This document shows positions 14,251 to 20,251 of a DNA stretch of 64,000 nt, piece by piece. Source of the stretch: Candidatus Syntrophocurvum alkaliphilum (GTDB taxonomy: Bacteria; Bacillota; Syntrophomonadia; Syntrophomonadales; Syntrophomonadaceae). Every line of letters begins with the position of its first letter. Within the stretch, counting starts at the first letter, position 1. Location of the stretch: NCBI RefSeq assembly GCF_009734445.1, contig NZ_CP046457.1, forward strand, positions 124,001 to 188,000, written 5' to 3'. The notes beneath the pieces are model-generated. The model had not been told where the DNA came from and did no database searches. It saw only the letters and a program-made list of their open reading frames with translations. Made by a program: the position numbers and the translations under genes.

Positions 14251-15810
14251 ATGCGTAAGTTAGGCAAAAAGAATGCAAAAAACCAGCAAGATAATAATAC
14301 TGATATTATGTTATCTAATGAAGAGATTAAGTTGCCTCTTCCTTTAAATGAAAAATTAGAATTACTAAAACCGTATTTAGAAACTAACCATGATATTATA
14401 TATCGTGAGTTATATATTAAAGCATTCAATATAAAGGCAGTTATTATTTATATAGAAGGGATAGCAAATGATCAATATCTCCACGACAATATAATTAAAC
14501 CTTTAATTTTAAACAATAGCTACCAAACACCACTGGATAAAACAATTATAGATCAAATTTCTCATACCACTATAGCGGTAGGAAATATACAAAAGTCTAA
14601 TAACTTACAAACTATAATTAATCATATATTTGATGGAATGACAGTTCTGTTATGTGATGGACTTGACGAAGCTTTGGTTTTTGATATTCATGGTGGCGAG
14701 TTTCGGGGAATAGAAGAACCTACTACAGAAAAATCCTTACGAGGTAATAAAGAAGGGTTTTCTGAAATTCTTGATATAAGCTTACCACTTATCAGAAGGC
14801 GTTTAAAAGATCCTAATTTAGTTGTGGAAAAAACCATAGTAGGACAACGTAGCCGGACCCAAGTAGCTATTTTATATATTAAAGACATAGCTGATCCTAA
14901 AATAGTAACAGAAGTAAAAAAACGCATTAACAATATTGATATAGATAATGTTTTTGAAGGTAGTTATATAGAACAAATGATAGAAGATAATTCATATTCA
15001 CTTTTTGCTCAAATAAGAACTACTGAACGACCTGATAAAGCAGCTGCATTACTAGCAGAAGGACGTATAGTTGTATTAACAGATGGTTCACCAACAGCTT
15101 TATCTATGCCTAGTTTATTTATAGAATATTTTCAAGCATCTGAAGATTATTATGAAAGAACTTTAGGCGGATCTTTTACACGACTAACTCGTATTTTTGC
15201 ATTTTTTATTGCTATATCTTTTCCAGCAATATATGTTGCATTAACAGCTTATCACCCTGCATTAATACCTGATGGCCTTATTGTCCCTCTTATTCAGGCT
15301 AGAGTCCAAGTTCCTTTTCCTGTTCTTTTAGAACTACTTATTTTTGAACTAATAATACAACTAATAATAGAAGCAGGATTACGAATGCCTACTACTGTTG
15401 GGCAAACAGTAGGTGTTGTAGCCGGTATTATTTTAGGGCAAGCCGCTATAGCTGCTAATTTAGCTAGTCCAGCGGTAATTATGGTAGTGGCAATAACTGC
15501 TATTGCTACATTTGCTTTACCCACCGGTAGCTTAATATTAGCTAGTCGTATTATAAGACTACCTTTTTTGATACTCTCTTCTTTTTTTGGTATCTTAGGT
15601 TATTCTTTGGCTATGTTTCTAATGATAGCTCACCTTATGAGTTTAAATAGTTTTGGGGTTCCATATCTATCACCTATAGCTCCTACCCGCTATAGAGATT
15701 TGAAGCAAGATACTTATATTCGTAATTTTATTTGGAGCATAAAAAAGCGTCCTGTAACAATACCTCACCAGGATATAAATGATATAAGAAATAAAGGTAG
15801 GGATAAATAG
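14251..15810 (+). CDS. gerKA: spore germination protein, GerA family A subunit
   Basis: The A subunit (519 residues) of a nutrient germinant receptor in the spore inner membrane. The large N-terminal hydrophilic domain (about 1-310) is followed by several membrane segments from about residue 315, including ALTAYHPALIP and LRMPTTVGQTVGVVAG, which are typical of GerAA/GerKA proteins. AGGGAG precedes the ATG. It abuts gerKB. Assignment to gerK rather than another gerA paralogue is nominal. Confidence 0.94.
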   Translation: MRKLGKKNAKNQQDNNTDIMLSNEEIKLPLPLNEKLELLKPYLETNHDIIYRELYIKAFNIKAVIIYIEGIANDQYLHDNIIKPLILNNSYQTPLDKTIIDQISHTTIAVGNIQKSNNLQTIINHIFDGMTVLLCDGLDEALVFDIHGGEFRGIEEPTTEKSLRGNKEGFSEILDISLPLIRRRLKDPNLVVEKTIVGQRSRTQVAILYIKDIADPKIVTEVKKRINNIDIDNVFEGSYIEQMIEDNSYSLFAQIRTTERPDKAAALLAEGRIVVLTDGSPTALSMPSLFIEYFQASEDYYERTLGGSFTRLTRIFAFFIAISFPAIYVALTAYHPALIPDGLIVPLIQARVQVPFPVLLELLIFELIIQLIIEAGLRMPTTVGQTVGVVAGIILGQAAIAANLASPAVIMVVAITAIATFALPTGSLILASRIIRLPFLILSSFFGILGYSLAMFLMIAHLMSLNSFGVPYLSPIAPTRYRDLKQDTYIRNFIWSIKKRPVTIPHQDINDIRNKGRDK

Positions 15811-16914
15811 TTGTTGAAAAAATCAGATTTTGTTATAACAAGCAAACAATTAATTTTTATTATTATTGGTTGCATGGTAACTACGGTAAATTACAATCTA
15901 CCCCAAGTAACATCTACTGAAGTAGGACAAGATGCTTGGATTCCCGTAATTATAGGTGGCCTTGTTCCCTTATTTTCAATTTTTATGATAGAAAGATTAC
16001 ACCGCAACTTCCCTACTCAAAGTTTTGTTCAAATGACTTTTTTAATTTTTGGAAAATGGTTAGGAAATGTAATTATATTGTCTTTTATATTATATATAAT
16101 TTGTTTACAAGCAATTGTTTTGCGTATTTGTTCCGAAATTACCACAACATTTATTTTACCTCAAACGCCGATTTGGGCCCTTTCTTTATTATTTATCATT
16201 GTATCTGGATATGTCGCAATAAAAGGAGCTAAAGTAGTTGGCAGAATGAATGAATTTCTATTTTATTTATCCTTAATAGCATTAATCATGATTATTTTAC
16301 CAGTTTTTGAACATTCAAATTTAACTAATCTTCTGCCTGTTGCAGAAGCTGATATTAGTGATTTGGTATTAGCTGCACGTGTAACTCTATACTCATATTT
16401 TGGTGTAGAAATTCTATTTTTAATTTATTCTATGGTTACAAGAAAGGACGAAGTGTTAAAAGCAGCATTTACTGGTATAACTATAACAATATCTTTTTAT
16501 ATTATAGTGGTTTTAGCATGTCTATTAGTTTTTGGAGCTGAAACCATGCAAGCTTTAATATGGCCAGTAATGATACTTCTAAAAGTTATTAATATTCCGG
16601 TTTTCGAACGATTAGAGTTATTTTTTCTTGTTATATGTATGTCTGTGGGAATTCGTGCCATATTTAATTTCGGCTTTGCTGCATCGTTTTCAATAGCTGA
16701 TTTATTAAACAAAATAAAACTTTATCCTTATATAATAGTAGGCTATTGCTTATTTGTGTATATAGGTGCACAAATTCCCGAAAATATAATAGAAATTCTT
16801 AACTGGGCTTATTATGGAGGCTATTTGTTTTTATTTTTTGGTATTGGTTATCCTATTTTATACCATGTAGTTTATGGAATTCGCAAAGAAAAGGTGATGA
16901 AAGGTGTACAGTAA
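15811..16914 (+). CDS. gerKB: spore germination protein, GerA family B subunit (permease-like)
   Basis: The B subunit (367 residues), an APC-superfamily-like protein with about ten membrane helices that forms the germinant-sensing membrane part with the A and C subunits. It starts with tandem TTG codons at 15811 and 15814 right after the gerKA stop; either could be used. It overlaps gerKC by 11 bp. Confidence 0.93.
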   Translation: MLKKSDFVITSKQLIFIIIGCMVTTVNYNLPQVTSTEVGQDAWIPVIIGGLVPLFSIFMIERLHRNFPTQSFVQMTFLIFGKWLGNVIILSFILYIICLQAIVLRICSEITTTFILPQTPIWALSLLFIIVSGYVAIKGAKVVGRMNEFLFYLSLIALIMIILPVFEHSNLTNLLPVAEADISDLVLAARVTLYSYFGVEILFLIYSMVTRKDEVLKAAFTGITITISFYIIVVLACLLVFGAETMQALIWPVMILLKVINIPVFERLELFFLVICMSVGIRAIFNFGFAASFSIADLLNKIKLYPYIIVGYCLFVYIGAQIPENIIEILNWAYYGGYLFLFFGIGYPILYHVVYGIRKEKVMKGVQ

Positions 16915-18007
16915 GTTATTAATTTGTATAATGTTGCCCGCATTTATCTTTCTCAGTGGATGTTGGGATTATAAAGATTTAAATGAAGCAATAATTCCTA
17001 TTGTTGCCGCCTATGATATATCTGAGGATAAACGTTTTAATTATACTGTTACAACATTTTCCCCTAATATTGAGCCTGAAGCAGAAAGAGATAATATTAT
17101 AATTAGTAAGGACTTTTTAAATGCAGGCGAATTTAGACAAAGATTAGCTCACACCTCAGGGCGTAACTATGTTTTAGGACGACTTGAAACAATAATAATA
17201 AGTGAAGAACTAGCAAGAAAAGGTGTAGGTGATGTATTTGATACTTTGTTTCGTACTCCCCAAATAAGATATTCCCTACTGTTAGGTGTAGTTGAAGACC
17301 GAGCTGATGAATTTATGCATTTTGAAGAGAAGGAAGAAAAAAGTTTAGGAAAGCTTTTAAGTTTAATGTTAAGTGTAAGTCAAATGCATTCTTTTATACC
17401 AACTACTACTTTACATGAGTTGGGAATAGGTATTAATGATATAGGTTATAACCCTGTCATACCAACATTAAAAGTACAAAATAATCGGGTAGTTTTATCT
17501 GGTGTTGCAATTTTTAAAAGTGATAAACTAATAGACAAAATTGATATGGATGAGACACGATCACTGTCTCTTTTACGTGGTATAGATACATTTGGATATA
17601 TACGTTTTGTAGTAAAAGAAGATGGCAAAATTATTGATACTGGTACTGTCCGAGGCCAAAATTCAAGAAAAGTTTCAGTAAAACGAAAAGATGATACCTT
17701 TATTTTTACTATTGATATTGATTATGAAGAAGCTGAATTAATTGAACATACTGGTACACAAAAGATAAATGAAGAACATTTGCAAAAAATTGAAAAAAAT
17801 TTAGCTGCTGATATAAAGGAAGAATGTGAACAGTTTATAAAAAAAATGCAAACCGTATATAAGTTTGATTGTATTGATATAACCCGATTTGCTCAGGCAA
17901 AATGGCGCAAAGAAATTCGTGACAAGATTGATAATGGTTTTATAGAAGATGCAAAAATCAATGTAAATGTTTCGGTCGATGTACAGCTAAAAGGTGAAAC
18001 ATATTAA
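16904..18007 (+). CDS. gerKC: spore germination lipoprotein, GerA family C subunit
   Basis: A 367-residue lipoprotein subunit of the receptor. The lipobox LSGC puts the lipidated cysteine at residue 20, followed by the family signature CWDYKDLNE. The rest is the Ger(x)C fold. The start is GTG inside gerKB. The Lgt that would lipidate it is encoded at 37225-37974. Confidence 0.94.
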   Translation: MYSKLLICIMLPAFIFLSGCWDYKDLNEAIIPIVAAYDISEDKRFNYTVTTFSPNIEPEAERDNIIISKDFLNAGEFRQRLAHTSGRNYVLGRLETIIISEELARKGVGDVFDTLFRTPQIRYSLLLGVVEDRADEFMHFEEKEEKSLGKLLSLMLSVSQMHSFIPTTTLHELGIGINDIGYNPVIPTLKVQNNRVVLSGVAIFKSDKLIDKIDMDETRSLSLLRGIDTFGYIRFVVKEDGKIIDTGTVRGQNSRKVSVKRKDDTFIFTIDIDYEEAELIEHTGTQKINEEHLQKIEKNLAADIKEECEQFIKKMQTVYKFDCIDITRFAQAKWRKEIRDKIDNGFIEDAKINVNVSVDVQLKGETY

Positions 18008-18050: not shown

Positions 18051-18109
18051 TAAGGCAGGGGACTTAGCCTTAGAACAGAGAACCGTCCCCTGTTCTAGGT
18101 CCTGTTCTA
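18051..18109. repeat. GGGGACG-family compound hairpin, copy 4
   Basis: Two adjacent hairpins. The first has arms TAAGGC/GCCTTA around a loop with GGGGAC. The second has arms TAGAACAG (18071-18078) and CTGTTCTA (18090-18097) around AGAACCGTCCC. A third arm copy, CCTGTTCTA, follows at about 18101. It lies between gerKC and the first DUF1538 gene and may act as a terminator, but it lacks a T run. Confidence 0.75.
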
Positions 18110-18131: not shown

Positions 18132-18827
18132 TTGCTGGGTGATATTAAGGATACGGTTTTTGAAATTGTTCAGGCTGTTTTGCCTGTTACTATAGTAGTT
18201 ATAATACTGCAGTTTTCTTTAATAAGTATGCCAATGGATGTTTTTTTACACTTTTTGGCTGGTACAGTTATGGTAACTATTGGTCTTATACTATTTATGT
18301 TAGGAATAAAAATTGGATTATTACCTTTAGGGGAGACAGTTGGAGCAGAAATACCTAAATGGGGTTCAGCAGTTATAGTAATAGCAATAGCTTTTATATT
18401 AGGATTTGCAGTAACAGTAGCAGAACCTGATGTAAGAATTTTAGCTGACCAAGTGGAATTTGTTTCTCAAGGTGATATTTCAAAATCAATATTAATCTTT
18501 ATGGTTGCTTTAGGTGTAGGTATATTTGTAGGTTTAGCAATGTTAAGAATAATTTTAGGTATACCATTAGCATATCTCTTAGGAGCAGGCTATGTTTTTG
18601 TTTTACTATTATCTTTTATAGTGCCATCAAATTTTGTGCCAATAGCATTTGATGCTGGAGGGGTTACTACTGGTCCATTAACAGTTCCCTTTATATTAGC
18701 ATTAGGTATAGGAGTAGCATCTGTTTTAGGTGGTAAATCAACTTTAGGAGATAGCTTTGGATTAATTGGTTTAGCTTCAATAGGGCCTGTTATAGCAGTT
18801 ATGCTTCTGGGGGTGATTCTTCAGTAA
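18132..18827 (+). CDS. DUF1538 membrane protein, first copy
   Basis: A 231-residue protein with six or seven predicted membrane helices. It has the conserved motifs of the DUF1538 family: AEPDVRILADQVE near residue 98 and AFDAGGVTTGPLTVPFI near 173, the latter possibly a re-entrant or substrate-binding loop. The start is TTG after GGGAGGAG. It lies one base before a second copy and three bases further from a PII-like gene. A transport function is suggested by topology and the PII partner, but no substrate is known to me. Confidence 0.82.
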   Translation: MLGDIKDTVFEIVQAVLPVTIVVIILQFSLISMPMDVFLHFLAGTVMVTIGLILFMLGIKIGLLPLGETVGAEIPKWGSAVIVIAIAFILGFAVTVAEPDVRILADQVEFVSQGDISKSILIFMVALGVGIFVGLAMLRIILGIPLAYLLGAGYVFVLLLSFIVPSNFVPIAFDAGGVTTGPLTVPFILALGIGVASVLGGKSTLGDSFGLIGLASIGPVIAVMLLGVILQ

Positions 18828-18828
18828 T

Positions 18829-19551
18829 ATGGATATACAAATTTTTACTGGTTTTGACCATGTGTTACTAGAAGTGTCACAAGCTTTAGCTCCATTAGTA
18901 GTGTTGTTTTTAATATTTCAATTTGCTTTTCTTAAGTTAGAAAGAGAACAAATATATAGGATAATAATAGGGCTTATATTAACATTTTTCGGATTAGCCT
19001 TTTTTCTACAAGGTGTTTATGTTGGATTTCTTCCTGCAGGTAGGGAGATGGGTACTGTATTAGGTGGATTTGAAAAGTTATGGATAATAATACCTATAGG
19101 ATTTGTTTTAGGGTTTGTTGCCACGATAGCCGAACCTGCGGTTAGGGTTTTAAGCTACGAAGTTGAGAAAACATCAAGTGGTTATATAAAGGAAATGGTT
19201 ATTTTGTTAACCCTTGCCTTAGGTGTAGGTGTATTTGTAGCTTTAGGTATGGCAAAGATAATTTATGGTATACCTTTTTATTATATTATTATACCGGGAT
19301 ATTTAATTGTATTATTAATGTTAAAGTTTTCAGCTCCAGAATTTACTGCCATTGCCTTCGATTCTGGTGGGGTTGCTACAGGACCAATGACAGTAACATT
19401 TATTATGGCAATGGCTATAGGAATAGCAGATACTATGCCAGGTAGAGATGCAGTTATAGATGGATTTGGTCTTATAGCATTAGTAGCTTTAGCTCCTATA
19501 ATAGCTGTTATGGCTTTAGGGCTATTATATAAAGATAAGGAGGAATTATAG
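18829..19551 (+). CDS. DUF1538 membrane protein, second copy
   Basis: A 240-residue paralogue of the previous gene, sharing AEPAVRVLSYEVE and AFDSGGVATGPMTVTFI. The pair probably forms a heteromeric unit, since some DUF1538 proteins have both halves in one chain (family knowledge, not checked here). The ATG follows the previous stop by one base, which suggests coupled translation. The gene ends in an AAGGAGG site that serves the PII-like gene. Confidence 0.82.
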   Translation: MDIQIFTGFDHVLLEVSQALAPLVVLFLIFQFAFLKLEREQIYRIIIGLILTFFGLAFFLQGVYVGFLPAGREMGTVLGGFEKLWIIIPIGFVLGFVATIAEPAVRVLSYEVEKTSSGYIKEMVILLTLALGVGVFVALGMAKIIYGIPFYYIIIPGYLIVLLMLKFSAPEFTAIAFDSGGVATGPMTVTFIMAMAIGIADTMPGRDAVIDGFGLIALVALAPIIAVMALGLLYKDKEEL

Positions 19552-19553
19552 AA

Positions 19554-19895
19554 ATGCCATATAATAGTCATGATTTAATAGTTACTATCGTTAAAAAGGG
19601 CTGGGCAGACAAAGTGGTTAAAGCCTCAAAACAGGCTGGGGCTGAAGGTGCTACTGTAATTTATGGCAGAGGTACTGGTATTCATGAACAAAAAAAATTA
19701 TTAGGTCTTTCCATTGAACCTGAAAAGGAAATGGTATTAACAATAATATTAAAAGAAGAAACAGAAAAGGTATTAAAGGCTATAGAGAAAGGTTGTAGCT
19801 TAGATAAACCAGCAACTGGTATAAGCTTTGTGATTGAACTAAAGAAAGTTGTAGGTATAGTACACCTGTTAGAGCAACTAGGAGTAGATGAATAA
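19554..19895 (+). CDS. PII-like signalling protein
   Basis: A 113-residue protein of the PII (GlnB/GlnK) fold. The B-loop region is KPATGISFVIELKKVVGI. The T-loop region around GRGTGIHEQKKLLG lacks the tyrosine that is uridylylated in classical GlnB, so nucleotide binding without that modification is likely. It is cotranscribed with two DUF1538 membrane proteins, much as GlnK is with AmtB, so it may gate them in response to adenylate nucleotides (inference). Confidence 0.85.
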   Translation: MPYNSHDLIVTIVKKGWADKVVKASKQAGAEGATVIYGRGTGIHEQKKLLGLSIEPEKEMVLTIILKEETEKVLKAIEKGCSLDKPATGISFVIELKKVVGIVHLLEQLGVDE

Positions 19896-20251
19896 TCAGA
19901 AAGAATACACTGTAAAGTACTTACTAGGAAATAAAAGACATGTTACTATAATTATATAAAAATATAAAAATAACCCTTAAATTTAATTAAAAGGGTTATT
20001 TTTTTGTCTAAGATTCTAATCTAGTGACTAAACCCATAAAGGCAAATTTAAAATTATCCAATATTATATTACCTTACCTATCTACAGAGATTGAGTTCTC
20101 TACTACGTTGTTTAGATTAGTTGGTTCATTCTCTTACTAACTTTTATAAGATATGATAAATAACCCTTAAGTAAATTTTTAAGTATTGTTTAAAGAAACA
20201 CACTTTTGCAAAACATAGTAAAAACTTTTGCGCCACTAAAGGGGGGAAAAT
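19896..20251. other. intergenic gap before mgtE
   Basis: A 356 bp gap. It holds the terminator at 19968-20005 and a short AT-rich stretch before the mgtE ribosome site. I looked for a magnesium (M-box) riboswitch and did not find its conserved core. No small ORF has a good ribosome site. Confidence 0.65.
19968..20005 (+). terminator. terminator of the DUF1538-PII operon
   Basis: Arms AAATAACCCTT (19968-19978) and AAGGGTTATTT (19991-20001) form an 11 bp stem followed by a T run. Confidence 0.88.

Follow-up and report, generated by a model that had tools for sequence, protein, structure and literature searches.

The only characterised pair of DUF1538 proteins is UmpAB of Halomonas zhaodongensis, which was reported to act as a heterodimer in Na+(Li+,K+)/H+ antiport, measured in vesicles (PMC5484666). 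E. coli KNabc became tolerant of NaCl, LiCl and alkaline conditions with umpA and umpB together but with neither alone, and the two proteins co-precipitated (PMC5484666). The antiport claim comes from one report by one laboratory on one pair; that report does not mention a PII protein, and the cloned fragment that worked carried no PII among its listed ORFs (PMC5484666). In addition, DUF1538 belongs to a set of protein families from which optimal growth pH can be predicted (PMC13255231). Two further systems are relevant because a PII-fold protein serves a membrane transporter: GlnK-AmtB, and SbtB-SbtA, in which a PII-like protein regulates a Na+/bicarbonate transporter and structures are known (PMC8352866).

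We analyzed a 64,000-nucleotide stretch of the Candidatus Syntrophocurvum alkaliphilum genome (the window), in which two DUF1538 genes and a PII-like gene form an operon. Its three ORFs, all on the + strand, are nearly contiguous: protein A (231 aa, TTG start, 18132..18827), protein B (240 aa, ATG start, 18829..19551) and the PII-like protein P (113 aa, ATG start, 19554..19895). The span given by the original prediction, 18132-19895, is exact. One base separates the stop of A from the start of B, two bases separate the stop of B from the start of P, and a Shine-Dalgarno-like AAGGAGG for P can be read within the 3′ end of B (approximately 19541..19547, + strand). A probable intrinsic terminator, an AT-rich hairpin followed by T7, lies at 19966..20006 (+ strand); the hairpin with its T-run (19973-20005) is strong (-13.6 kcal/mol versus -5.3 in shuffles, z -3.8), and a scan for GC-rich terminators 3′ of P did not pick it up. 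On its 5′ side, the operon is separated from a GerAC-type gene by a gap of 124 bp.

Several neighboring features were also noted. A gerAA/AB/AC-type spore germination operon (14251-18007) lies immediately 5′ of the DUF1538 operon, and the organism is therefore probably a spore former. The leader region contains, just 5′ of A, a copy of a dispersed repeat (18053..18098, + strand; GAACCGTCCCCTGTTCT core at 18080-18096), of which 14 exact copies were found in the genome and none for reversed-pattern controls. Several copies are arranged in head-to-head pairs 33-57 bp apart, forming a dispersed palindromic repeat, which is probably not specific to the A-B-P system. The leader of A-B-P folded no better than shuffles, and Rfam gave no match at the window locus. 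The MgtE gene adjoining the operon was rejected as a conserved partner: it was present in 5 of 132 loci, including the window, and the others had none within 500 bp.

The order A-B-P recurs far beyond chance. DUF1538 loci were gathered from relatives, from the phylum and from named genomes of several phyla, and were searched with profiles grown from P and B of the window. Among 188 non-redundant DUF1538 units, 178 were followed directly by one or two PII-like domains; five of the remaining ten end at a contig edge and five lack P, so that the order was found in 178 of 183 scorable loci, distributed over several bacterial phyla and archaea. The loci included those of Clostridia, Bacilli, Enterococcus, Balneolaceae, Desulfovibrio, Aminicenantes, spirochaetes, Actinomycetota, Caldiserica and methanogens, and identical gene order was observed on alphaproteobacterial and clostridial plasmids. 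The non-edge loci without P were L084, L090, the second pair of L129, L164 and L146 (a 65-aa fragment), and no recognizable remnant of P was detected in the four of these that were rechecked. No other gene recurred next to the DUF1538 pair. Across 398 genomes of the phylum, DUF1538 was detected in 138 and the PII-like family in 139 (E<=1e-8): both occurred in 136 genomes, DUF1538 alone in 2, the PII-like family alone in 3 and neither in 257 (Fisher p about 1e-100, with genomes counted as independent). This near-obligate association, together with the PII fold of P, gives good support to the original prediction of a membrane transporter regulated by a PII protein. Searches of the literature outside subscription journals found no paper linking DUF1538 to PII, and the pairing appears to be new to the literature. 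Viral contigs scanned for P and for DUF1538 contained neither.

The number of PII-like domains varied with the form of the DUF1538 unit. Two adjacent DUF1538 genes, as in the window, were followed by one P gene in 41 cases (the window form), by a tandem fused P protein in 32 and by two P genes in 12. Fused DUF1538 pairs were accompanied by a tandem P protein (80) or by two P genes (4) and never, in our sample, by a single P, and all six single-gene DUF1538 units had a single P. In the tandem proteins (e.g., L003:2114-2881), the T-loop of the first domain is degenerate; the second domain keeps the family signature.

The original prediction had described A and B as two paralogous membrane proteins with conserved motifs, which was borne out. 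Both matched Pfam DUF1538 (PF07556) over their full length (250 bits for A and 257 bits for B; cut-off 22.6), and they share 40% identity over 221 residues with no gaps (E 6e-56). The motifs AEPDVR/AEPAVR and AFDAGGVTTGPLT/AFDSGGVATGPMT are present in the pair and lie in some of the most conserved DUF1538 columns. In NCBIfam, the UmpA and UmpB models were the sole matches of A and B, at full length and with 115-137 bits; these scores are far below the cut-offs of the two equivalogs, NF041627 and NF041628 (137/119 bits for A and 116/115 bits for B, versus 490/500). The window pair is like UmpAB in its adjacent homologous DUF1538 genes, with 7 TM in each protein and the same gene order. UmpAB is a heterodimer, and A and B, encoded by adjacent genes and assigned to separate clades, are predicted to form one as well; the differences are the weak match and the PII-like gene, which does not figure in the UmpAB paper. 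A DUF1538 profile search of PDB sequences gave no match, and Foldseek and VIA searches with a model of a fused DUF1538 pair gave none at E<=0.001 (best Z 5.4), although this does not indicate a new fold because the fused-pair model exceeds 400 residues.

Dual-topology families such as EmrE/SMR, CrcB/Fluc and DUF606 occur as single, paired or fused genes. DUF1538 follows the same pattern, with little charge bias in single-gene members, opposite bias in pairs and fusions also present, but its proteins are larger (about 7 TM), are unrelated in sequence and have a PII-like protein alongside. In an AlphaFold2 model of one fused pair (pLDDT 90, pTM 0.90), each half contained about seven transmembrane segments, including two that break at the AEP and FDxGGxxTGxxT motifs, and the linker had no helix; given an odd number of crossings per half, the second half would be inverted. 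With loops assigned from this one predicted model, the set of loops enriched in Lys and Arg in half A of 67 fused pairs was the opposite of that enriched in half B. Among 84 separately encoded pairs, the K/R bias was above zero for A in all 84 and below zero for B in 80, the window values being +3 for A and -2 for B; the six single-gene proteins ranged from -1 to +4. In a phylogenetic tree, the A and B clades, to which the window proteins belong respectively, were split with 100/100 support, and the single-gene proteins formed a third clade between them. An opposite positive-inside bias in paired homologs together with a bias near zero in single-gene members is the pattern of an inverted pair with a dual-topology ancestor. 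From this we infer that A, the predicted N-in/C-out member, and B, the predicted N-out/C-in member, form an antiparallel heterodimer that arose from such an ancestor via one duplication; fusion came later, probably once. Opposite subunit orientation, as predicted for A and B, is not discussed in the UmpAB paper. Five loci with a single DUF1538 gene of little charge bias and a single PII-like gene (L155, L168, L179, L195 and L197) encode candidate dual-topology homodimers.

Members of the PII-like family were also detected away from DUF1538. In G352, G380, G400, G460 and G489 they lie beside a MamN/ArsB-like (CitMHS) permease of the ion-transporter superfamily (L236, 1834-3717; L237, 3479-5355; L239, 3149-5089; L277, 333-3107; L278, 2553-4294), and their T-loop lacks the GIHE motif. 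In G144 (L238:408-3547), a PII-like gene of the DUF1538 type directly follows pntB, which encodes the beta subunit of the proton-translocating transhydrogenase; the same genome has a second PII-like copy, with DUF1538. A different, distant PII family is encoded immediately 5′ of a CPA2 antiporter-like gene in G046 and G093 (L252:1468-3152 and L256:193-1860; the Na_H_Exchanger domain, PF00999, was assigned for L252 of G046 only), and this looks like another PII-antiporter pair. Whatever their substrates, the partners found here share an antiporter-like or proton-coupled theme that fits the activity of UmpAB. In addition, the leader of a DUF1538-DUF1538-PII-PII operon in G224 consists of a c-di-AMP (ydaO) riboswitch (L149:5071-5198, - strand; 74.9 bits) and a terminator-like hairpin, the riboswitch ending some 20-70 nt before possible start codons. 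This links at least one DUF1538-PII operon to the osmotic/K+ signaling network; the riboswitch is not in itself evidence that P binds c-di-AMP. No such leader was detected at about 90 other loci scanned, including the window, although the window organism has two c-di-AMP riboswitches elsewhere in its genome. A c-di-AMP riboswitch at L037 was not counted as it lies downstream of the operon, before an asparagine synthase-like gene.

We consider it reasonably probable that A-B-P is a PII-regulated, antiparallel DUF1538 cation/proton antiporter. As members of the DUF1538/UmpAB family, A and B would constitute a secondary transporter built as a heterodimer of inverted topology and, by extension from UmpAB at the family level, may exchange protons against the monovalent cations Na+, Li+ and K+. 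P would be its dedicated cytosolic PII-like protein, binding a small ligand in the inter-subunit clefts, with an adenine nucleotide or c-di-AMP as the best guess, and could use its highly conserved T-loop to dock on A/B from the cytosolic side. As P almost always accompanies the exchanger, it probably switches the exchanger on or off; docked P may act in either direction. The scores of A and B far below the UmpA and UmpB cut-offs count against this proposal, as do the absence of a riboswitch in the window and the finding of a c-di-AMP leader at only one of about 90 loci scanned. It is also weakened by the dispensability of P: UmpAB was active in E. coli from umpAB alone, which indicates that P is not essential for transport.

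The substrate is where an alternative carries the most weight. A/B might be a secondary transporter or channel for another solute, such as a different ion or an organic acid, with P as its gate and UmpAB activity not extending to this branch. The weak match to UmpA and UmpB would allow this, DUF1538 has no close match in sequence or fold among transporters of known substrate, and the superfamily that includes the MamN/ArsB-like partners of the sister PIIs handles many substrates. However, all experimental data on the family concern Na+(Li+,K+)/H+ exchange (PMC5484666), most of the other PII partners resemble antiporters or are coupled to protons, and c-di-AMP controls one of the operons. We regard another solute as doubtful, if still worth keeping in mind, and the "unknown substrate" of the original prediction as too pessimistic a description when the sole characterised DUF1538 pair is an antiporter.

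P itself belongs to Pfam P-II (PF00543; 35.4 bits, cut-off 25), with no other Pfam match, and to a DUF1538-associated subfamily (153 bits with its own profile, A2). Its AF2 model (pLDDT 87.5) has a PII fold, with Foldseek matches to PII proteins at E 1e-7 and a VIA match to a PII at Z 11.8 (rmsd 2.6 over 91 residues). SbtB matched the model about as well (Z 10.8) and offers a precedent for a PII-like protein that serves a single Na+-linked transporter, if A/B is indeed cation-linked; by sequence, however, P is a P-II member and not SbtB, and A/B is unrelated to SbtA. Single and second P domains share the signature GRGTGIHExxKL(L/F)GIxIEPEKE, followed by L(D/N)KPGxGIAFV. Compared with classical PII, the T-loop is shortened by about five residues and lacks Tyr51, a missing Tyr that the original prediction had noted for P (Tyr occurred in the loop of 0 of 41 single-copy family members). 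The phosphate-binding residues K90, R101 and R103 of classical PII are replaced, with I90 and G101, neither K nor R at these positions anywhere in the family, and no Arg at the R103 equivalent in P, whereas K58 and the cleft glycines are kept. This replacement counts against the proposed reading of A-B-P, and, judged by these residues, it is unlikely that its ligand is held as ATP is in GlnB.

Such losses, together with the near-obligate association, might instead suggest that P serves chiefly in the structure or assembly of the A/B complex, with no small-molecule signal. Yet UmpAB works in E. coli without P, the sister PIIs serve unrelated transporters, and conservation in P is highest in the T-loop and the cleft (G40, G42, H44, E45, K58 and G89), as expected for a ligand and partner site; we think a purely structural role improbable. 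That P is an ordinary nitrogen-sensing GlnB/GlnK, located beside the pair by chance, agrees with its P-II match and PII fold but is already contradicted, and is scarcely credible, because P lacks equivalents of Tyr51, K90, R101 and R103 in a genome without an Amt gene (PF00909), canonical PII proteins score just 24-26 bits on the P-family model, and P-type proteins accompany DUF1538 so consistently. P is the sole PII of the genome, which also has no PstA/DarA (PF06153, CdAMP_rec), a family to which P does not belong.

The proposed parallel with AmtB-GlnK therefore stands in part. As in GlnK-AmtB, a PII-fold, T-loop-bearing cytosolic partner is encoded directly with a membrane transporter, and gene order and fold both agree. 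The ligand site, with neither the uridylylated Tyr nor the ATP-binding basic residues, does not; on the transporter side, A/B is of another family and probably an antiparallel pair rather than a trimeric channel.

Regulation of a cation/proton antiporter by P could be one case of a broader theme, since related PIIs occur at several unrelated antiporter-like families. We tentatively suggest, at somewhat less than even confidence, that DUF1538 proteins are antiparallel, dual-topology-derived antiporters gated by their own PII class, that related PIIs were recruited to MamN/ArsB-like, CPA2 and transhydrogenase partners, and that such "antiporter PIIs" parallel GlnK-AmtB, possibly reading c-di-AMP or adenylate charge. 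With the inverted A/B pair, the few transporters known to derive from dual-topology ancestors would be joined by a 7-TM family, one in which single-gene, paired and fused forms are all extant. About one third of the sampled genomes of the phylum encode DUF1538 transporters, which are also found in methanogens, halophiles and gut anaerobes. Should almost all of them be under dedicated PII-like control, ion and pH homeostasis would join nitrogen and carbon uptake as processes switched by PII proteins.
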